Assembly (NCBI GenBank): GCA_903889985.1
Contig: CAISZN010000249.1
Location: 1-43,736, forward strand
Direction: 5' to 3'
Length of the DNA stretch: 43,736 nucleotides
Source of the DNA: an uncultured Hyphomicrobiales bacterium
GTDB lineage: Bacteria; Pseudomonadota; Alphaproteobacteria; Rhizobiales; Beijerinckiaceae
A model generated the notes under the pieces. The model saw nothing but the letters and a program-made list of their open reading frames with translations. It did not search any database and had not been told where the DNA came from. Below, piece after piece: positions 440-30,064 of the stretch; the first letter of the stretch is position 1; the number at the start of each line of letters is the position of its first letter. Position numbers and translations under genes: made by a program.

Positions 440-1668
440 TAGATGGCCTCCGTCACGCGCGAGACCTCGCCGCGCTCCCGGTCATAGATGATGGACTTCT
501 GAGACCGCCCGGCCAGATACCCGGCATTGAAGTGCCAGGCGTCTTGTGGGGCGATGATCTCATGCGTTTCCGCAATGCACCCGCCGAGCGTGGCGACGTG
601 CTTCGAATTGTGATGGACGTGGAAGGTATGGACGTAGCGGGCCTTGGTCCTGCCCCACATTTCAGGCTCACGGGAGGCCATAATCTCCGGCATTTGCGCG
701 GCTTTGACCGTATGACCGTGCGTCGTGCCAAGCATCACCCGGCCGAACTCGCGGAACCTGAACAGGGATGCAGACAGATCAACCGACACGCGCGGGTCGT
801 TCCGATACCATGCATGGAGGAAGTATTGGACCGCGTAGGCGGCTTCCTCATCGTGGTTGCCGGGGATCAGGATGATCTCGACCTCTTCGTGGTGGTCGAG
901 CATCATGTCGGCCACGACGACGATGGTCTCGCAGGTCGTCAGCAGCACCTTTGGGAAACGTCCATCGACTTGAAGGGCATGTCCCGAACGTGCCGTCCGG
1001 TTTTCGTTTGTGTTGCTGTGAAGGGTGTCGCCCCCGATGAGCAGGATCGCGCGCTTGGTCGGCTCTGTGCGGGCGATAACGCGGGCGAAGGTCTGCTTGA
1101 CCACCTTGACCGCCGTCTTCAGGTCCCAATTCTTGCCCGTCTCGCCCTGCCAGGAGAACAGCCCGAAGTGCGGATCGGACCAAGGAACGAGGGCTAATTG
1201 ATCGACAAATTGGAAGTCAGGAGCCGGACGAATAGGAGCGGATGGCACGAAGTCTTTGAACGCCGCCTCAAGGTCCGCGACAATCTGCTTGGGATCAATC
1301 GCGCCTTCCTTGGTCTTCACCCACTTGGCCAGCTCCCGCCCGTCCGGGTCTATGAGAGCCGAGACGCCCTTGACGGTATGCCCCGCCGGAACCTCGAAGG
1401 CCTCGCCGGGCGCAGGCTTCTGCTGCACCCACCGCTTTTGAATTTCGTCGTTCGGGCCGCGCTGTTCAGAGGTCTTGTGGACCACGAAGCCGGGCAGCAC
1501 CGCATCGAAGCCCAGCATCCCGCGCTTGGCCGCCTGTTTCAAACGATGCCTGATCGTGCATCGGGTGACGTTCAAGGCCTTTGCGGTCGCATTCTTGCTG
1601 CGGCCATGCTTTTCCCAAGCCTTGATTGTATCGCGCAGGTCATCGTCACTGAGGCGCTCGATGGCCAT
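436..1668 (-). CDS. calcineurin-like metallophosphoesterase with N-terminal helix-turn-helix
   Basis: Motifs GGDTLHSN, IPGNHDE, THGH and HVHH of the metallophosphoesterase fold; N-terminal segment 'NATAKALNVTRCTIRHRLKQAAKRG' resembles HTH. Confidence 0.88.
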   Translation of the reverse strand: MAIERLSDDDLRDTIKAWEKHGRSKNATAKALNVTRCTIRHRLKQAAKRGMLGFDAVLPGFVVHKTSEQRGPNDEIQKRWVQQKPAPGEAFEVPAGHTVKGVSALIDPDGRELAKWVKTKEGAIDPKQIVADLEAAFKDFVPSAPIRPAPDFQFVDQLALVPWSDPHFGLFSWQGETGKNWDLKTAVKVVKQTFARVIARTEPTKRAILLIGGDTLHSNTNENRTARSGHALQVDGRFPKVLLTTCETIVVVADMMLDHHEEVEIILIPGNHDEEAAYAVQYFLHAWYRNDPRVSVDLSASLFRFREFGRVMLGTTHGHTVKAAQMPEIMASREPEMWGRTKARYVHTFHVHHNSKHVATLGGCIAETHEIIAPQDAWHFNAGYLAGRSQKSIIYDRERGEVSRVTEAIY

Positions 1669-1675
1669 GCAGACC

Positions 1676-2029
1676 TCACTTGTGCTTGTCGAGGATGTAG
1701 GTTCCGACGGCCAGCGCCCCGGCCCCTATCCCGCATAGGACGGTCCATCCGGCCTTGATGAGACGGTCCATGCGGGTCTGGTCGCGCTCGCGGATCAGGC
1801 GCTCGGTCTCGAGTTCGTGAAGTCGGCGCCCGAGATCGTCGTGGACCTTTTCGTGGACCTCGAAGCGGTTCTGCCCCGCATCGAGCTTCCCGTCGATCTG
1901 ATCCTGTTTGCTCGAAATCTTATCGACTGACCGGAGCAATTCCGTCAGCCGTTCGCCCTGGTCCTTCACTTGGTCAAGGACCTGCTGCGTGAACTGCTTC
2001 AAGAGTTGCGAGACAGGATCGTCGCTCAT
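1676..2029 (-). CDS. coiled-coil protein with C-terminal TM helix (holin-accessory/hemolysin XhlA-like)
   Basis: Heptad-rich body and C-terminal 'AGWTVLCGIGAGALAVGTYIL'; located in the lysis region. Confidence 0.6.
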   Translation of the reverse strand: MSDDPVSQLLKQFTQQVLDQVKDQGERLTELLRSVDKISSKQDQIDGKLDAGQNRFEVHEKVHDDLGRRLHELETERLIRERDQTRMDRLIKAGWTVLCGIGAGALAVGTYILDKHK

Positions 2030-5737: not shown

Positions 5738-7147
5738 TCATTCGAAGTATCCGTGGACTGTCACACCGCCTTGGATGACCTGAGAAGCCGTTGCAGTGCC
5801 GACCGGCATCCTCAGAATGACGACGAAGCTCAGACCAGCTTCGCAGACGATAGGCCCGAAGTTGGGCTGCGAAATGCGTTCCGCCTTCGCGCCAATGGCC
5901 GCTGCAACAGCGAACTGCTGCGCGCCGACAAACTTGCGGATGTGGCCGCCGGTCGAGAGGTTGACCGACGCGCCGTTCACGCCCACCGACCAGTCGAGAA
6001 GCGTCGGGGTCGTGGCGACGGCCGCGCCCGTGTTGTAGGTCTCGATGTCGATGCCCGTCATGACGAACTGATATGGCGACGGGACGGTGATTGCGAACAG
6101 GGCGTAGTCCGTCACCGCACCTGCCACAGCAGCGAACCCGAAACGACCGTCGATAGTGGCATAGCCCGCCGCCGTGTTGGACAGTGTGGCGTTCGTCGGA
6201 GCCGTAGAGTTGGCGTTGTTGGTGTTGGTGGCGAAGGTCGAAGGGTTATATCCCGAGTGGTTTCCCATCGCGGCCATGCGCTGCGCCCATGGCGTATTGA
6301 TGTTGCTGTCCAGCACGCCTACGAAGAGATCGGTCACGATCATTGATGGTGCTGAGGCTGGCGCTGTACCAGTTGTGCGAAGCCCGAAGAACGCCGGAAG
6401 ATGGGTGACGTTCGAAATGCGGGCCTGCGTCAGCGGGAGCTTGATTGTCTGTTCAGAGACGAAGAGGCCCGTCGAGGTGTCCTGCACCACGAAGGTGCAG
6501 AAGTCATCATCCATGATCACGTCGAAGGTGTAATAGTTCGACGTGCTGTAGGTGATAGATGTGCCGGTGGTGTCCACGCCGTTGAAGGTCACGACAGGCT
6601 GAAGGACGCCCGCCGCTGTGACCTGGAAGTAAGCACCCACGTTCGGGGATGCCGCCGCAGTGTTACCAGAGCCGAAGCCAAATTCAGCGATGGCATTGGC
6701 CTGCATTGCAAGGCGCGCGCGGATGCGGCACTGAAGCGGCGCGCGCATGATGCGTGGGAACAGCTTCCTCGTGGCGTAGAAGATGCCGGTGTTGATCGTG
6801 GTGATAGCAGCGGAGTTGATCGTCAGGCCGAGCGCCGTCTGCGCAGCCGCCATTGTGGTGGCAGTTGCAACGAGACGGTTGGCCGAGATCGTCGTGCCTT
6901 CGAAGGGCTCCCACATGAGGGGCGAGACGACAGTCGTCGCGATGCCACCCGTGCGGTCCATGCGGGCCACGCGACCGTTACCGTCATTGGACCCGCCGAT
7001 CATCAGCCCGGAGGCCGTGCGAACGTCGCCGCCGCTGGCGCTATCCAAAGCACCGGACGGCCCAAACAAGCGACTGCGGAGAGCGCGAGTTGTCGAATTG
7101 TCCACTTCCGCGACGACGCCGCCGTTGCCTGCAACCTGAATAGCCAT
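5738..7147 (-). CDS. virion-associated structural protein (fiber module), function unknown
   Basis: 469-aa ORF; beta-rich composition; in the fiber gene cluster. Confidence 0.65.
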   Translation of the reverse strand: MAIQVAGNGGVVAEVDNSTTRALRSRLFGPSGALDSASGGDVRTASGLMIGGSNDGNGRVARMDRTGGIATTVVSPLMWEPFEGTTISANRLVATATTMAAAQTALGLTINSAAITTINTGIFYATRKLFPRIMRAPLQCRIRARLAMQANAIAEFGFGSGNTAAASPNVGAYFQVTAAGVLQPVVTFNGVDTTGTSITYSTSNYYTFDVIMDDDFCTFVVQDTSTGLFVSEQTIKLPLTQARISNVTHLPAFFGLRTTGTAPASAPSMIVTDLFVGVLDSNINTPWAQRMAAMGNHSGYNPSTFATNTNNANSTAPTNATLSNTAAGYATIDGRFGFAAVAGAVTDYALFAITVPSPYQFVMTGIDIETYNTGAAVATTPTLLDWSVGVNGASVNLSTGGHIRKFVGAQQFAVAAAIGAKAERISQPNFGPIVCEAGLSFVVILRMPVGTATASQVIQGGVTVHGYFE

Positions 7148-21562: not shown

Positions 21563-24247
21563 TCACGCATCAATCGGAGCAAAGGCGGTGCGCACGTCAT
21601 GGTCATTGGTCGATTGAGTATGTTCATGACGCCCGACCATTTCGCTTTCCATGGCCGATGCGAAGACGCGCCCATTGACGGTGAAAACCATCTTCTTTTG
21701 GCCCGTCGTTGCCCCTGAAGGAGGAACAAAGCTTGATTGCTTCCCCGGTGGTTTTGCCGCCGCTGGCGCATTTGGCGTTGTGCCTAGTGACGGCATTTTG
21801 AACCCACTCAGGGCACCCTGAATGCCGCTCAGGAGAGAAGCCCCGGCACGGGAGCCCGCGCCTGCAAAATCTGCCCCCGCAAATCCGTTTGTTATCTTCA
21901 AGCCAGCATCCGTGCCCTTAGTGGCAAACCCGGCAAGGCTAAAACCGTTAGCGAGCTGCGTGGCCGCTTCGGCACCTTTGGCTGTGTTATCTTTTGTTGG
22001 CGCAAGTTCCTGCGGACCGCCAATCGGTTTTGGGAACGGCGCAATGCCGGAAGACAGCGATTTCCCAATCGCGTCACCAATATATTTGCCGACCTTAGAT
22101 GCCGCACCTGATAAGTCTGCCGAATTAACGTCTGGCATCTTGGGCAGGGACGACTGCGGCATCTTACCAAGACCGGGGGTCTTAACCCCGCCAAGCGAAC
22201 CCATAATGCCACTGAGCAAGGAAGCCCCGGCTTTAGTGCCAGCCCCTGCAAAGTCTGCACCAGCGAACCCGCCGATGGTCTTTTGTCCAGCGGATTCGCC
22301 ATTGGTGGCGAAGCCAGCGACATTGAACCCGCTGGCAATCTGCTGCGCTGCTTCCGCGCCCTTGGCTGCAAGCCCAGCGGTGTCACCCACAGATTTGCTT
22401 TCACCTTGCGGGGCACTTGGGGTTGATTTTTGAGGGGCGGCTAATGGCCCTTTTGTCGGAGCAGACGGGCGGACGCCCCACCTCTTAGTGAGGTCATCCA
22501 TGGCCTTCATGCGGTCGTCAATTTCGCCGCTCGGGACGCCCCAAAACTGAAGCGGCCACCCGCTCGTAGGCCCCTGCCCGATTGAATATGGCGGGGCAGG
22601 CATATTGCCGGGGACGCCGTTCATACCAAATCGGAACGCTGCGCGCCCATCACCGATAGAATACTTTTCGGCTTCCGGCATCTTCGGGCCATTCAAGCCA
22701 AAGTGCGGACTGCGGTCGCCTTCCTTATTTGGTGGCTTGATAAGTGCCAACGCGACGGCAAGCGCGGTGATAGCACCCGCGACCAAACCAACCGCACCAG
22801 CCGCGCCGACAGCCGCAGAAATGACGGCCGTGCCACCAATCACGAGCAGTGCGGCTGAAAGTGCTGCGATTGCAATCCCAATGTTTGCCATCGCGCCGGG
22901 GTTTGCATTCGCGAACCCGCCAATGGAAGTGAACATTTCCGTGATGCCCTTCATCACAGGGATTGCTGCCTGCATCATCGGCGCACCGATGGATTGCATC
23001 ATGCTTTCGTGCTGTTCTTCATAGGCCTTTTTAACGCCCTTAGAATTTCGGTTCGTGTAGTCGTTATAGGACTGGTCAATGCTATGTGCCTGACGCCACT
23101 GCGGAATGTCTTTGGCGATTTGATCAAGGAAGCCAGGGTCCGAAAACATTGTGAGCATACGCATGACATTGCGATTGCGGCCAACCTTCGCAATGTTGCT
23201 ATCAAATTCGGAACGCTCTTCCGGGTTCATGTGGGATACGTCGATTTTTTTATCACCGACTGATCGGATCAGGTCGCCCAACATCCCTTTTTCTTTGGTG
23301 GTCAGGGCTGTCAATGCAGGGGTGACGACTTTCGTCATCCAACCATGGATGTCGAACTTCCCCTGCCCAGTGTAGTCGGATGACCCAACAATGCCTCCGG
23401 GCGCGACGTTTATGCGACCGCCCTTATCGTGAGTGACCTTCGACGGATCAATCAACTTAGCCTTGTTCAACAGCTCATATTGCTGTTTTGACAGGGTGTT
23501 CGCCCCCGTCATGAACATATATGCCGACATCATGGCCGTGCCGGCGGTGTCGCCGCCTAGATCCGCCGCGACGACAGACATCGGGCCAGCAAGAAAGTCA
23601 GGACTTGCGTTCGCCCAAGCGACACCGCCACGCTTGGCCATGGTCTGATAGGTGCCGGCATCGAGCTTGCCACCAGACCCGATGATGTTTTGAGCAAGCC
23701 TTTCAGCGAGTGCTTTCGTTCCAACGGGGTCGGACGTGGTGCGCCCGGTCATCTCCATTGCGCGCCACATCTTCATGCCTTCGCCCTCGGCTTTCTTGCC
23801 GGTGGCGTTGGCGATGATAGCCTCAAGCTTCATCGACCAAGGCGTGATTTCTTCCGCGTGTTGAGCCCCAACGACTGATCGCAGTTCGTTGTAATTGCGG
23901 AGATAGTCTGAAACCGTCGAAGTCGGGACGGCCGTGGCGACCTCGCTGTAATACTTGCTTTGGAGGCGCAGGACCTCGTTGTATTTGATGCCGCTGCGCT
24001 GAAGCTTGTCCTGCTGATCCAGCAGCTTGTCGCCGTGGTTCGCGATACCCTTGAGTTCGGAGGCAAGACCAAGGCCCGCACCGATAGAAAGAGCCCCCCA
24101 AATGGCAGGCTTGAGCCCGGCAAGGCCCTTTTGCAGGGTCGCCACGCTGGCCCCAAGGTCCAGAACCTCTTTCGAAATCGCCGCAAGGACGCCAGAGACG
24201 CCATTTTCCGCCTTCAGGTGGATTGCGACTTCATAGACTTGGGCCAT
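21563..24247 (-). CDS. tail tape measure protein
   Basis: 894 aa, largest tail-module gene, internal hydrophobic segment, duplicated C-terminal blocks (GFNVAGFATNGESAGQKTIGGFAGADFAGAGTKAGASLLSGI). Confidence 0.9.
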   Translation of the reverse strand: MAQVYEVAIHLKAENGVSGVLAAISKEVLDLGASVATLQKGLAGLKPAIWGALSIGAGLGLASELKGIANHGDKLLDQQDKLQRSGIKYNEVLRLQSKYYSEVATAVPTSTVSDYLRNYNELRSVVGAQHAEEITPWSMKLEAIIANATGKKAEGEGMKMWRAMEMTGRTTSDPVGTKALAERLAQNIIGSGGKLDAGTYQTMAKRGGVAWANASPDFLAGPMSVVAADLGGDTAGTAMMSAYMFMTGANTLSKQQYELLNKAKLIDPSKVTHDKGGRINVAPGGIVGSSDYTGQGKFDIHGWMTKVVTPALTALTTKEKGMLGDLIRSVGDKKIDVSHMNPEERSEFDSNIAKVGRNRNVMRMLTMFSDPGFLDQIAKDIPQWRQAHSIDQSYNDYTNRNSKGVKKAYEEQHESMMQSIGAPMMQAAIPVMKGITEMFTSIGGFANANPGAMANIGIAIAALSAALLVIGGTAVISAAVGAAGAVGLVAGAITALAVALALIKPPNKEGDRSPHFGLNGPKMPEAEKYSIGDGRAAFRFGMNGVPGNMPAPPYSIGQGPTSGWPLQFWGVPSGEIDDRMKAMDDLTKRWGVRPSAPTKGPLAAPQKSTPSAPQGESKSVGDTAGLAAKGAEAAQQIASGFNVAGFATNGESAGQKTIGGFAGADFAGAGTKAGASLLSGIMGSLGGVKTPGLGKMPQSSLPKMPDVNSADLSGAASKVGKYIGDAIGKSLSSGIAPFPKPIGGPQELAPTKDNTAKGAEAATQLANGFSLAGFATKGTDAGLKITNGFAGADFAGAGSRAGASLLSGIQGALSGFKMPSLGTTPNAPAAAKPPGKQSSFVPPSGATTGQKKMVFTVNGRVFASAMESEMVGRHEHTQSTNDHDVRTAFAPIDA

Positions 24248-24370: not shown

Positions 24371-24922
24371 ATGAACCCGCCGACTGACCCGGCCATAAGC
24401 GGGAAGCTCGACGGTGCATTCGTCTATGTCATCACCGGGCAGCACGGGAAATCCAAGATTGGTGTGTCTGGGAACCCGATTGCTCGTCTGGCTCAACTTC
24501 AAACAGGGTCGCCAGACGCCCTTGCACTAGCGTTTATCGGGGCGACGAACGGCGGCGGATACCGGGTCGAGGCAGAAGCCAAGCGCATCTTGGCGAAACA
24601 GTCGCTTGCGACCGATGAATGGTTCGACGTTCAACCGGAACTTGCGATTTCGGTCGTCATGGGAGCGGCTGTGAAGGTCAAGGAGCCCGTCGCGGTCGTC
24701 TCAGCATCTCAGGTGCCGACAATCATTCGCGCTTGCCTCAGCGCGCCGGGGACGGCCGCTGCCAAGCCATCTGCGGTCCCATATATTGCCGCCACCGCAT
24801 TGATGATGGCCTCATTGGCATTCATTATCGGGAAGCTAACCGGCGGGAACTTCTTGCCCCCTGCTATAGGCGTCTCGATTGGATATGCGATTGCCTTGGC
24901 CGTGTATTTCAAGGTCCGGTGA
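24371..24922 (+). CDS. GIY-YIG (Mug113/T5orf172-like) protein with C-terminal transmembrane segments
   Basis: 'GAFVYVITGQHGKSKIGVSGNPIARLAQLQTGSPDAL...YRVEAEAKRILAKQSLATDEWFDV' matches the GIY-YIG/Mug113 layout; C-terminus 'YIAATALMMASLAFIIGKLTGGNFLPPAIGVSIGYAIALAVYFKVR' is hydrophobic. GGAGG 11 nt upstream of ATG 24371 (upstream in-frame ATGs exist at 24293 and 24323). Confidence 0.82.
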   Translation: MNPPTDPAISGKLDGAFVYVITGQHGKSKIGVSGNPIARLAQLQTGSPDALALAFIGATNGGGYRVEAEAKRILAKQSLATDEWFDVQPELAISVVMGAAVKVKEPVAVVSASQVPTIIRACLSAPGTAAAKPSAVPYIAATALMMASLAFIIGKLTGGNFLPPAIGVSIGYAIALAVYFKVR

Positions 24923-25310
24923 TCGACTTCAAAGCGCCGTTGGCAATCATGTCGGCGGCCTTCTGGCCATCATGTGCCACTGCCCCGCCGAGGAACGGAC
25001 GCGCCGGGATTTTTGAAGTCCCAAACTCATGCCACGTTGCCTTCTTGTTGTCCGACCCGACATAGCCTTCATGCCGGTCTGAATTGTGAGTGATGGACGC
25101 CTTCAACTCGCCAGTATCCAGCAGTGGCGTGTCGCCATGCTTCGCAACGGCTGCCGGGCCCAGGGGCGCCCATCCGAACTTGTATGTTCCAATCGCATCC
25201 TTGGCCGAATTCTCAAGGACGACGCAGGCCTTTTCCATGCTATCGCCCAGGTGCTTTTCGCAGGCGATGGAAGCGGCCATCATCTTGGCAGCAAATGTCG
25301 CAAGGTCCAT
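24909..25310 (-). CDS. HK97 gp10-like tail completion/morphogenesis protein
   Basis: 'WHEFGTSKIPARPFLGGAV' signature; starts 4 nt after the frameshifted chaperone stop. Confidence 0.72.
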   Translation of the reverse strand: MDLATFAAKMMAASIACEKHLGDSMEKACVVLENSAKDAIGTYKFGWAPLGPAAVAKHGDTPLLDTGELKASITHNSDRHEGYVGSDNKKATWHEFGTSKIPARPFLGGAVAHDGQKAADMIANGALKSITGP

Positions 25311-25314
25311 GAGA

Positions 25315-25904
25315 TTAATCCCGCTTGTTCCAGCGCATATTGCCCCAATTCCACTCGCCGCCCTCAAACTCACCAAAGACGATCACAGCGGCCTTGCGCA
25401 TCATTGTGGGCATGGACATCGCTAGGTCCGGGTCCATGCCGTTTTTTATGAGCCACAGAACTTCAATAAATTCCGGGCTCTGAGCTAGTTTTTTATTTCA
25501 TCCGTGGCAGGACCCGCATCAACTTCATATGACGTGAAGCGGTTCATGCCCTCGGTGGCTGCCGTCACACCATGGAAGTCAAGCTGGGCCATCAAGGCCT
25601 CAAGTTGTGATCTGGTACGGGGACGCGAAATAGGCTGCCCGTCGATCTCCACGACCGACGATGACATGAGAGCCTGACGCAACGCGACCGCGTTCTGTGC
25701 GTCATCCCCTAACATGCAAGTGACGTGATGGGTGTCGAGGAAATTCAGCTTCTTAACGCCAATGATGCGTCCGGCTGCATCCTTCACCTTTTCAATGCGG
25801 GTTGCATCCGCCTTGATCCGTTCCGCCAGCGACATCTCTGCCGGGGCGGCCTGCGGCTGATGCGCAGCCTGCACGTTCGATACTTTCGCCATTCTAGTCT
25901 CCAT
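25315..25904 (-). CDS. predicted -1 frameshift product: tail assembly chaperone G-T fusion (~196 aa)
   Basis: Slip at A AAA AAC gives ...DEIKN|LAQSPEFIEVLWLIKNGMDPDLAMSMPTMMRKAAVIVFGEFEGGEWNWGNMRWNKRD*; the 57-codon extension ends at 25315. Confidence 0.75.
25485..25904 (-). CDS. tail assembly chaperone (P2 E / G-like, unshifted product)
   Basis: 139-aa ORF between tail tube and tape measure; ends DEIKN-TAG at the slippery site. Confidence 0.82.
   Translation of the reverse strand: METRMAKVSNVQAAHQPQAAPAEMSLAERIKADATRIEKVKDAAGRIIGVKKLNFLDTHHVTCMLGDDAQNAVALRQALMSSSVVEIDGQPISRPRTRSQLEALMAQLDFHGVTAATEGMNRFTSYEVDAGPATDEIKN
25488..25494 (-). promoter_or_regulatory. -1 ribosomal slippery heptamer A AAA AAC
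   Basis: Plus-strand GTTTTTT; codons AT[A AAA AAC] TAG in the chaperone frame match X XXY YYZ. Confidence 0.8.
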
Positions 25905-26011: not shown

Positions 26012-26449
26012 TCAGACGACCTTGATCATCGTCGAGGCAACCCAGTCGATCTTCATCGACACCTTGTCCTGCGCCTTCCACTGGCCCTTCTGAGCCAGCT
26101 TGAACGCCACCTTCTCGTAACGGTACTGCGAGAGGGTGCCGTTCTGCTCGGTGATCGTCTCGGTGATCGTGCCGGTCAGCAGGTTCGAGCCGTTCCAGTA
26201 GAGCGCCTCGTTGCGGGCGAAGAAGTCGTCGATGGACGAATCCCGGCGATCAAACTCAATAGAGCCCTTCCATCCGGTCGGAAGCTCGGCATAGAGCGGC
26301 GGGGAATTCAGAGGCTCGGACACGATCTGCTTGGTGTTCGGCTCAGAATTAAAGCCGGTCGCGGCAGGCCACGAAACGATCTGGCCGGTGACGGGATCGG
26401 TCACATCGACCGCAACGTCATGGCCAATGGAAAAGCCATTCAAGGGCAT
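26012..26449 (-). CDS. tail tube protein
   Basis: 'MPLNGFSIGHDVAVDVTDPVTGQIVSWPAATGFNSEPNTKQIVSEPLNSPPLYAELPTGWKGSIEFDRRD', directly after the sheath gene. Confidence 0.82.
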   Translation of the reverse strand: MPLNGFSIGHDVAVDVTDPVTGQIVSWPAATGFNSEPNTKQIVSEPLNSPPLYAELPTGWKGSIEFDRRDSSIDDFFARNEALYWNGSNLLTGTITETITEQNGTLSQYRYEKVAFKLAQKGQWKAQDKVSMKIDWVASTMIKVV

Positions 26450-26513: not shown

Positions 26514-28385
26514 TCAGACCGGAGGCGTGTTCGAGATCGTGACGCTTGCGCCGCCTTCGAGGTTCACGACGAAATAGCGCACGATGCCCAGATAGATCGC
26601 CTTGACGTAGGCGTACTGGTAACCAAGCGCCGTGGTGGCCTGCGAGTTGTTCGAGCCATCAAGGATGACCTGATAGGCCTGCGACCCATCCGCCGTGCCG
26701 ATGATGCCGTTCTTCTGCGCGAGCGAAAGGAATTCCATCAAGGCAACGCGAGCCTGACGACGCTCGTCAGGGGTCTGCGTCTTGCCGATGTACTGACCGG
26801 CGATGACTTCGATGGACTTGGCGAGGAAGTAGGTGACGCGGGGATACTCGTCACCGAAGATGACCGGGTTCGAGGACGTGTTGATGCCCAGCCGCGCGGC
26901 GAAGTAGTTGCCGCCGGGCGACTGGTTGGTGATGACGTCCATGCGGGCCGCTGCGAGCGCCTGCCAGTCGGCATAGGAGTAGGTCTTGCCGAGGATCGAG
27001 GACTGCGTGCCAACGATGCCGTTGATCGGCTTGTTGAGGGTGTTCTGCTCAGGGGATAGCGCACCCAGCTTGCCGAGGATGACGCCGGCAGGTGCAGAAA
27101 CGCGCTGCGAGATGTTGTTGATTGTGTCAGCCCAGACGATCCAGTCACCGAAAACGGCCTTGATCGTGAAGCTGTCCACGCCAGCGGTGTTGAGGGTGGT
27201 CGAGGCATTGGTGATCGTGTCGCCCGAGGGGGACGACCAGATCGGATAGGCGCCGATGTCGAGGCCGAAAGCCACCATCGCGCCAAGCGCCGCAGTGTCG
27301 GACAGGTCGGCAATTGCGAACTGCGAGACGCGGGCGCCGCGCAGGGCATACATGCCGGTGCGTGGAACGCTGTCCTGCCCGAGAAGCATCGTCGTGGTGA
27401 CGCTGGACGCGCCGTCGGTGCCGCTCGAGAAGGTATAGGTTGCAGAGATCGGTGCGTTGGTGTTCGCACCGGCCGAGGCCACCAGAAGATTGGACGGTCC
27501 GCGTGTGCCCGACAGTCCGCTGTTGATGGCTGCGGCGATGGCAACCCATAGGGCATTGCCCGTCAGGCCAGAGCCGATGTTGTCATAGACCTCGGGAAGG
27601 AAGCCCGGCAGGGATGCAACGAGCTTCCATGTGCCGCTTTGCGTGCCGGCCGAGATGATGGCCTTGAGGCTGTTGCCCAGAGCGCCGGTGTACTTGCCAG
27701 TGAGGGTGAGGCCGGTGGCAGTTGCCACGCCACCCGACAGGGTCGCGCCGGAGACAGCGAGGACGGTCGCTACCTTGGCCAGCGGGAAGCTGTTGCCAGC
27801 GGTGCCGAAGGTCTTGAAGGTGACCGTGATGACGTTGGCCGAAGTCAGTGCGTAGGAGCACTGCACAAGCTGCGCGTCTGCCGATGCCTGGAGGAAGGCA
27901 AGAGTTGCGGCAATGGTTGCCGACTGTGACGCGCCGATATTGATCTGGTTGCCGGTGGCGCCCGACGCTTTGAAGGTCACCGTCGTGGTGCCAATCGTGA
28001 AGGTGTCGTTTGCGGTCGGGTTGCCCGAGAAAGTGATCGTGCCGCTGGCATAGGCGCCGGTTGCGACCGTCGAAGTTGCGGCCACGTCGGTGCCGTCAGT
28101 GACGCGCACGCCTGCGTGGTATCCAGCGCCCTGCATGGACGCGAGGATGACCTGCGAGCCCATGTCGCCCGTGCGGTTGATCGTCGGCCCGAAGATCTGG
28201 GCGAACTGCGGATAGCCGCCGAACACCTGCGGGACGCCAACAGGCCCCCAGGTTGCAGTCCCGACGTGGCCGCAAACATTGGTGGAGACACCACCAAAGA
28301 GGAACTGCGGGGGGACAATCTGGACGAGCGGCTGTGGGACGCTCAACGCCGAAACGTTGACAGCGCCAAGCTGTGAGATGGGCAT
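26514..28385 (-). CDS. tail sheath protein
   Basis: 623 aa; 'VGTATWGPVGVPQVFGGYPQFAQIFG' N-terminus and '...IGKTQTPDERRQARVALMEFLSLAQKNGII' C-terminal region. Confidence 0.9.
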   Translation of the reverse strand: MPISQLGAVNVSALSVPQPLVQIVPPQFLFGGVSTNVCGHVGTATWGPVGVPQVFGGYPQFAQIFGPTINRTGDMGSQVILASMQGAGYHAGVRVTDGTDVAATSTVATGAYASGTITFSGNPTANDTFTIGTTTVTFKASGATGNQINIGASQSATIAATLAFLQASADAQLVQCSYALTSANVITVTFKTFGTAGNSFPLAKVATVLAVSGATLSGGVATATGLTLTGKYTGALGNSLKAIISAGTQSGTWKLVASLPGFLPEVYDNIGSGLTGNALWVAIAAAINSGLSGTRGPSNLLVASAGANTNAPISATYTFSSGTDGASSVTTTMLLGQDSVPRTGMYALRGARVSQFAIADLSDTAALGAMVAFGLDIGAYPIWSSPSGDTITNASTTLNTAGVDSFTIKAVFGDWIVWADTINNISQRVSAPAGVILGKLGALSPEQNTLNKPINGIVGTQSSILGKTYSYADWQALAAARMDVITNQSPGGNYFAARLGINTSSNPVIFGDEYPRVTYFLAKSIEVIAGQYIGKTQTPDERRQARVALMEFLSLAQKNGIIGTADGSQAYQVILDGSNNSQATTALGYQYAYVKAIYLGIVRYFVVNLEGGASVTISNTPPV

Positions 28386-28664: not shown

Positions 28665-29522
28665 TCATTGAGTGAGTGTGACGGTCGGGCCAAGGTCGCC
28701 GGCCGAATTCTTGCCTTGTGTCTGAGTGACGGGCGCGGTGATCGGGTAGCCGGTCGAAACCTGCGTCGTCGCGTATTCGACCCAATAGAAGAGATCGCGC
28801 CGGTAGAGGTTCGCGCGTTCCATCTGGTCGGTATCGTTCTGGCCTCGGTATTTCATCCATGCCTTTGTGAGGTCGGGCATGGTGAGGAAGTCGGTCGATG
28901 CGAGCGCCACGTCGATCAGATTGGCAGTCGTGGACCGCAGCGAGGGCGAAGGCGCCCACACGATGATCTGGAAGCCCCTGTTCTGGCGCTTCAACTCGCG
29001 AATGATGGTCCCGGCAGCAGCAACGCGCGCCGTGACGCGGCCTTCTGCCTTGACGGGGACGGTGATGACCGCCCCGGATGATGTCGTGCCCGTCCAGTCC
29101 ACGACCACGAGCGCCGTCAGGGCCGTGGCAATGGTGGTCAGCGTGTCATTGACAAGGGCCGCATAGGAATAGGCCTTGTTGCCCACGATGAGGGTCACAT
29201 ACTGGCCTGCTGTGACCGTGCCTGCGATGGTGATGGTGCGCGCTGCGACGGTGGCCGTCAGAGTTGCTGTCCCGAGCGTCTGGTCTTCCCAGTTCTGCGG
29301 GTATCGCGTCGTCACCTGTTCCATGTTCGGCTGGGCATAGACCGTGACCGTCACCTCGCCCGCGACGAGTGCCGCGTCGAGCTGCGTCGAGTTGGGCCAG
29401 CCAGGGGCGATGTAGCAGCCGACGCCGATGGTCGAGGCCTGTCCTGTCCCGTTCGGATAGATCGCGCCTGCAATCAGGGTGGCGAGGGCTGTTTCAACGT
29501 CGGAAAGGTCACACAAATTCAA
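28665..29522 (-). CDS. head-tail/tail structural protein, function unknown (TTG start)
   Basis: 285 aa; the start codon in the supplied ORF is TTG, overlapping the HNH stop codon. Confidence 0.7.
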   Translation of the reverse strand: MNLCDLSDVETALATLIAGAIYPNGTGQASTIGVGCYIAPGWPNSTQLDAALVAGEVTVTVYAQPNMEQVTTRYPQNWEDQTLGTATLTATVAARTITIAGTVTAGQYVTLIVGNKAYSYAALVNDTLTTIATALTALVVVDWTGTTSSGAVITVPVKAEGRVTARVAAAGTIIRELKRQNRGFQIIVWAPSPSLRSTTANLIDVALASTDFLTMPDLTKAWMKYRGQNDTDQMERANLYRRDLFYWVEYATTQVSTGYPITAPVTQTQGKNSAGDLGPTVTLTQ

Positions 29523-30064
29523 CCCCTCGCGAATTCGCCGTGGAACCGATCTGCCCCTACGACATATGCGGCGTGAGCGTCTTCCGGGGTTGGGTACAGG
29601 CCCAACGAGATGCTTTTGCCTTCATGCTGGATGCGGGCTCTGTATCGTCCGCTCTGCTTGTGAAGGTGGACGCCCTTGAACCCCGATTTGTTGCTCGACT
29701 TCATCGGGCCGTTGCGGGAGTTTTCGATATGTTGCGCAGACCGAAGGTTTTCCCAGCTATTGTTGCTCTTGTTTAGGTCACGGTGGTCGACTTCGGCTTC
29801 GGGCCATTCACCCGTCATATACAGCCATGCAAGCCGGTGAGCGCCGACCAAGCGGTTCTTGATCCTGATGCTGTGGTAGGCGTCAGACAAATACCCTGCG
29901 ATCTTGCCGGCGTGTTTGGAATTCCAGTTTTCGCAAATATGCTTCGCCGTCCTGCGCTTAGATGGCACAAAAGCATCAGGAGCGCGGGCCTTCCATCTAA
30001 ACTCGCCTGTTTTTGGGTCATAACTTACCAATTCGCGAAGCTTGTCTGCTGTCAGGTCGGCCAT
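29519..30064 (-). CDS. HNH endonuclease with C-terminal AP2-like DNA-binding domain
   Basis: 'AHRLAWLYMTGEWPEAEVDHRDLNKSNNSWENLRSAQHIENSRN' HNH and 'SGFKGVHLHKQSGRYRARIQHEGKSISLGLYPTPEDAHAAY' AP2. Confidence 0.9.
   Translation of the reverse strand: MADLTADKLRELVSYDPKTGEFRWKARAPDAFVPSKRRTAKHICENWNSKHAGKIAGYLSDAYHSIRIKNRLVGAHRLAWLYMTGEWPEAEVDHRDLNKSNNSWENLRSAQHIENSRNGPMKSSNKSGFKGVHLHKQSGRYRARIQHEGKSISLGLYPTPEDAHAAYVVGADRFHGEFARG

Follow-up and report, generated by a model that had tools for sequence, protein, structure and literature searches.

The E/E+E′ chaperones of phage P2 and other myovirus chaperones belong to phages with contractile tails and involve a -1 frameshift between the tail tube and tape measure genes. 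More generally, tail assembly chaperone genes conserve a -1 frameshift, which is textbook knowledge in the case of phages with long tails (Xu et al. 2004, cited in PMC5009743). In phage lambda (Levin et al. 1993; Xu et al. 2004, 2013, 2014, as cited in PMC5009743), two proteins, gpG and gpGT, arise because ribosomes slip by -1 at an X XXA AAN heptamer close to the end of a gene of ~140 codons. This gene comes right after the major tail gene, and the long form differs from the short one by an added C-terminal domain. In relatives of P2, frameshift efficiency is 2- to 3-fold higher (PMC5009743).

The locus described here has the genetic arrangement of the lambda system and would likewise yield two proteins. 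It lies in the window, that is, the whole stretch of DNA analyzed, which is the entire 43.7-kb contig from a fragmented genome assembly. As read from the sequence, it very probably undergoes a -1 programmed ribosomal frameshift that adds a short C-terminal domain of the T type to a tail assembly chaperone resembling gpG.

The junction and its neighborhood

The features of the locus are collected in Table 1. The 139-aa ORF (25904-25485, minus strand) closes with GAT GAA ATA AAA AAC TAG and thus ends, as the preliminary description had stated, at a heptamer of the X XXY YYZ type (25494-25488). The open -1 frame of 57 codons announced there is also found, at 25488-25318 and with the same residues; its product is LAQSPEFIEVLWLIKNGMDPDLAMSMPTMMRKAAVIVFGEFEGGEWNWGNMRWNKRD (57 residues, LAQSPEF...WNKRD). 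After the TAA of the extension (25317-25315) come the four nucleotides TCTC and then the ATG of the next gene at 25310, which is the spacing that had been given. The gap after the 0-frame stop, described as otherwise empty, exists as well, with a length of 174 nt in place of the 170 first reported.

Table 1. Features of the frameshifted locus and of the tail genes around it in the window
Feature	Coordinates	Strand	Remarks
0-frame ORF, putative gpG-like tail assembly chaperone	25485..25904	-	139 aa; phrog_20383, E=4e-17; model pLDDT 86.7
Slippery heptamer A AAA AAC, 0 frame (ATA AAA AAC)	25488..25494	-	kept in 90/92 loci
0-frame stop TAG abutting the heptamer	25485..25487	-	abutting stop in 82/92 loci
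-1 extension, putative T-like C-terminal domain	25315..25488	-	57 codons (25488-25318) plus TAA (25317-25315); model pLDDT 95
Predicted stimulatory hairpin	25450..25480	-	5′ arm 25480-25468, loop 25467-25464, 3′ arm 25463-25450, one bulge
Tail sheath gene	26514..28385	-	resembles the annotated phiKX1 tail sheath, E=2e-52
Tail tube gene, directly upstream of the frameshifted gene	26012..26449	-	phrog_12993; post-sheath position as in phiKX1 and G272
Tail completion/gpS-like gene	24909..25310	-	134 aa; PF05069 Phage_tail_S above cut-off; phrog_26/phrog_222 (tail completion or Neck1)
Tape measure gene	21563..24247	-	phrog_28 tail length tape measure, E=3e-4; size and position
GIY-YIG (T5orf172/MUG113) homing-type endonuclease gene	24371-24922	+	between the tape measure and tail-completion genes

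The true start of the 0-frame ORF is probably its second ATG, at 25892 (MAKVSN...), which would give a protein of 135 aa. This start is preferred because GGAG sits 6 nt on its 5′ side and because the 0-frame proteins of many relatives begin with MAK... or MTK.... Of the window's stop-to-stop frames with 60 codons or more, 377 in all, 28 have a heptamer in frame within their last 30 codons. Only this one joins a heptamer abutted by the stop to an extension of 50 codons or more, and a chance origin is untenable because the junction is conserved in relatives.

The element in the window is a contractile-tailed phage or prophage, given its sheath gene and the terminase, portal, major head, baseplate wedge and further tail families found along the contig. 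The order on the minus strand is sheath, tube, frameshifted gene, tail-completion gene and tape measure, and the succession of sheath, tube and chaperone with extension recurs in phage phiKX1 and in G272. The site had been placed between tail tube and tape measure. The tube gene does adjoin it upstream, but on the downstream side two genes separate the tape measure from the extension, one tail-completion-like (134 aa) and the other encoding a GIY-YIG endonuclease in antisense. An HNH endonuclease with an AP2 domain, probably another homing endonuclease, is encoded within the structural operon (29519-30064, minus strand).

Conservation of the slip site and the extension

With the window protein alone as query, neither phage records nor viral contigs gave any close relative. 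Access to the family came from phrog_20383, which led to 3 other genomes, and from the tube protein as an anchor, which led to 90 more loci. One of the genomes, G272, is listed under the family of the host, to which Methylobacterium belongs. Three of four relatives (the three genomes of phrog_20383 and phiKX1) combine A AAA AAC, an abutting stop and an alignable -1 extension. The heptamer and the extension are kept in phiKX1, Methylobacterium haplocladii (G272) and G369 at only 25-40% shared extension residues; in tblastn searches the window extension matches G272 with E=2e-12 and G369 with E=1.5e-9.

A profile of the extension, run in six frames and without any requirement for a heptamer, matches 92 loci, and the four misses are loci with little or no sequence after the tube gene. 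Homologs devoid of both slip site and extension had been named beforehand as grounds for refutation, and the outcome is the opposite. An in-frame X XXA AAN heptamer is present in 90 of the 92 extension loci, and the 0-frame stop follows it immediately in 82. In 89 loci the heptamer lies beside the start of the extension, as A AAA AAC (53), G GGA AAC (21), A AAA AAA (8) or A AAA AAG (7), and in the 90th, L093, G GGA AAC stands a few codons ahead of the stop. Clusters give a fairer count than loci, because some loci are one element sampled twice. The 68 distinct extensions form 31 clusters at 70% identity, and the representatives of 28 of these have the stop right behind the heptamer.

Purifying selection acts on the protein that the -1 frame of the extension encodes. 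Over 75 close pairs, the pN/pS of the extension is 0.12 in this frame versus 2.9-3.1 in the other two, and most differences within pairs affect the third base of a -1-frame codon. These data also bear on the idea that the junction reflects a sequencing error or a decayed frameshifted gene, to which the fragmented host assembly (695 contigs, contamination 8.55) might lend itself. The same junction is nevertheless present in tens of independent genomes, among them that of the complete phage phiKX1, with the extension under selection; this conservation refutes the idea, and its probability is negligible.

A second type of constraint acts on the heptamer itself. The family genes are GC-rich, and the lysine codon of the heptamer is AAA in 53 of 53 cases versus 42 of 221 (19%) elsewhere in the same ORFs. 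For glycine, the heptamer codon is GGA in 15 of 15 cases versus 21 of 440 elsewhere. This codon bias is a nucleotide-level constraint, unexplained by selection on the protein.

Runs of six A (seven in the A AAA AAA relatives) might slip during transcription and so open the second frame. Six A is, however, a short run for slippage by bacterial RNA polymerase, and the same arrangement is found in the 21 G GGA AAC loci, where no run exceeds three. The RNA hairpin located 5-8 nt downstream suits ribosomal slippage. Ribosomal slippage is favored, since long homopolymers are missing from the G GGA AAC members, and the transcriptional explanation is considered extremely unlikely.

Exceptions and alternative starts

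The heptamer is absent in two relatives, L009 (G249) and L012. In L009 (8114-8284), the own ATG of the second ORF overlaps the 0-frame stop (GAATGAG). In L012, from a Methylobacterium MAG (6529-6747), the second ORF is in the +1 frame and ATGATG is found just upstream of or overlapping the 0-frame stop. These lineages have apparently swapped slippage for coupled translation; L012 might alternatively use a +1 event at GAG TGA C. The fusion is therefore not universal. This suggests that what selection keeps is the extension, which is usually, though not always, made by fusion.

The same two loci invite the question of whether the extension is made on its own as a small protein, through re-initiation or from an internal start and without fusion. 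L009, with its ATGA overlap, and L012, with an ATG overlapping the 0-frame stop, own the starts that this would take, and the extension of phiKX1 is recorded as a stand-alone protein of 59 aa read from an internal ATG. The window junction, by contrast, has no ATG, GTG or TTG, and in most relatives the heptamer is the very point where the conserved block of the extension (LxRxP...) starts. That AAA AAC or GGA AAC is kept at the codon level ahead of the stop would, moreover, serve no purpose under re-initiation. Separate synthesis is considered very improbable, and fusion by a -1 ribosomal frameshift is favored.

Annotation of the relatives is uneven. In the GenBank record of phiKX1 (L007, LC644975), part of the -1 extension (6776-6955) appears as an independent hypothetical protein, which is probably a misannotated frameshift product; frameshifting and chaperones are unmentioned in the paper describing this phage. 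The predicted fusion junction of phiKX1 reads ...ETAKN-LSRHP..., and its strain, Komagataeibacter xylinus NBRC 13772, produces particles with contractile tails (PMC8566455). In G369 (L006), a tandem second copy of the 0-frame chaperone (1384-1809, minus strand), without heptamer or extension, is found just upstream of the frameshifted copy.

Predicted stimulatory structures

The hairpin predicted in the window has 13 pairs and one bulge, follows the heptamer after a spacer of 7 nt and has a free energy of -16.8 kcal/mol. Its z is -4.27 in a 48-nt stretch, where 0 of 200 shuffles are as stable, and -2.41 in 60 nt. It differs from the hairpin of the family, whose GG(N)ACCCC / GGGGT(N)CC arms it does not have. 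In most relatives, a long predicted hairpin starts 5-8 nt past the heptamer; its arms, of the type GGAACCCCG and CGGGGTTCC, consist of the codons for R-N/H-P and N-G-V-P. At the cluster level, the mean folding z downstream of the heptamer is about -3.0, versus -0.1 for the following 56 nt.

The pairs of this hairpin, named from the structure of one relative, were examined in 68 sequences. Paired cells amount to 63%, versus 57% after shuffling and at most 52% when the pairing partner is slid. Two-sided changes number 121 versus 72 in shuffles, and the covariation score is 0.211 versus 0.134. Sliding the partner reduces the paired cells, the two-sided changes and the covariation score alike. Taking the structure from one relative biases this comparison somewhat toward the hairpin, and RNAalifold predicted no consensus structure from the 68-row alignment.

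All members with A AAA AAA or A AAA AAG fall into a single clade, the one with L023, L033, L061, L066, L071 and L074. Its members mostly have no such hairpin and more often show an SD-like GGAGG on the upstream side, at the A AAA AAA and A AAA AAG sites often at a distance of 16 nt. An SD-type element may stand in for the hairpin there, a relationship confounded by common descent.

A trade-off in which weaker slip sites (AAC) would come with a hairpin and stronger ones (AAA/AAG) without was considered and rejected as confounded by descent. At the cluster level, hairpin z is -3.8 for AAC versus -1.0 for AAA/AAG (p=0.0007), a trend that agrees with the ranking of AAR over AAC among slip sites in E. 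coli (PMC4066793). In the tree, all AAR members are found within one clade, with 1-3 changes, and the AAC members of that clade are also mostly hairpin-free. For this reason, no link between slip strength and hairpin is claimed.

Identity of the putative chaperone and of the added domain

Each of the 41 sequences in the 0-frame alignment matches phrog_20383 (best 2e-56), a family listed under "unknown function" in PHROGs that covers the 0-frame part only. The extension has no PHROG match and is absent from every family library searched. No match to Pfam, its chaperone models included, or to NCBIfam was found for the family. Among PHROGs named for a chaperone function, family members match only phrog_344, 508 and 3840, all weakly.

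Structural models predict a two-stranded hairpin with helices for the 0-frame protein and a compact three-helix domain for the extension. When the 0-frame model was searched against 350,542 PDB chains, the best E was 0.06 and no match was individually significant. The HK97 chaperone 2OB9 came second (E 1.4) and YqbN, 3KLU, came 15th (E 2.7), at a TM of about 0.4. Among viral models, the tail assembly chaperone of Rhodococcus phage Finch gave a weak match (E=4e-3), and a fold search with the extension alone gave no meaningful one. Position, architecture and weak fold similarity together argue strongly for a function as tail assembly chaperone. The fusion by -1 frameshift put forward in the preliminary description is supported by the heptamers of 90 out of 92 loci, by selection on the -1 reading, by a predicted hairpin that covaries in relatives and by the position after the tube gene.

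Proposed mechanism

The majority of ribosomes would read the 0-frame ORF and terminate at TAG. A minority would shift back by one base on A AAA AAC, with tRNA-Lys and tRNA-Asn re-pairing with AAA AAA. This step would be aided by the hairpin ~7 nt downstream and perhaps also by slow termination at the abutting stop. Slipped ribosomes would then add 57 residues to yield the long form, both the slippage and its rate being presumed. A bolder version, which is rather unlikely, makes the abutting stop itself part of the signal: slippage would occur with the stop in the A site, and competition by the release factor would set the ratio of short to long form.

By analogy with lambda G/GT (PMC5009743), the short chaperone may coat the tape measure protein, and the rarer long form may bring in tail tube subunits through its extra domain. 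On the same analogy, both forms would depart before the tail is completed.

Significance

This kind of frameshift is already known and would be expected by a specialist; what is new is the family, with its stop-abutting slip site. A likely function is gained for phrog_20383, together with a conserved domain of ~57 aa that has escaped the family libraries searched because a start codon is usually absent. According to its authors, the dedicated predictor PRFect works only where both parts have been annotated as genes (PMC10885494), and a case like that of the window would therefore be missed. For studies of slippage, the family offers natural variation in the form of four heptamer types, the presence or absence of a hairpin, and two lineages in which an overlapping start seemingly replaces slippage.

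Comparison with known systems

Several features separate the locus from lambda. In lambda G, 15 nt lie between the G GGA AAG heptamer and the stop, whereas in the family of the window the stop abuts the heptamer. The added domain has ~57 aa, versus the 144 codons annotated for lambda T. The lambda tail is non-contractile, while the window phage is contractile-tailed, and, unlike in lambda, another gene separates the frameshifted gene from the tape measure. No sequence similarity was found between the putative chaperone of the window and lambda gpG/gpGT. Likewise, the HK97 chaperone (2OB9) and B. subtilis YqbN (3KLU) show a weak fold likeness to the 0-frame model, with no sequence similarity detected. 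Likened by description and not by sequence, the locus resembles P2 E/E+E′ in its contractile tail, its -1 frameshift and its place in the interval from tube to tape measure.
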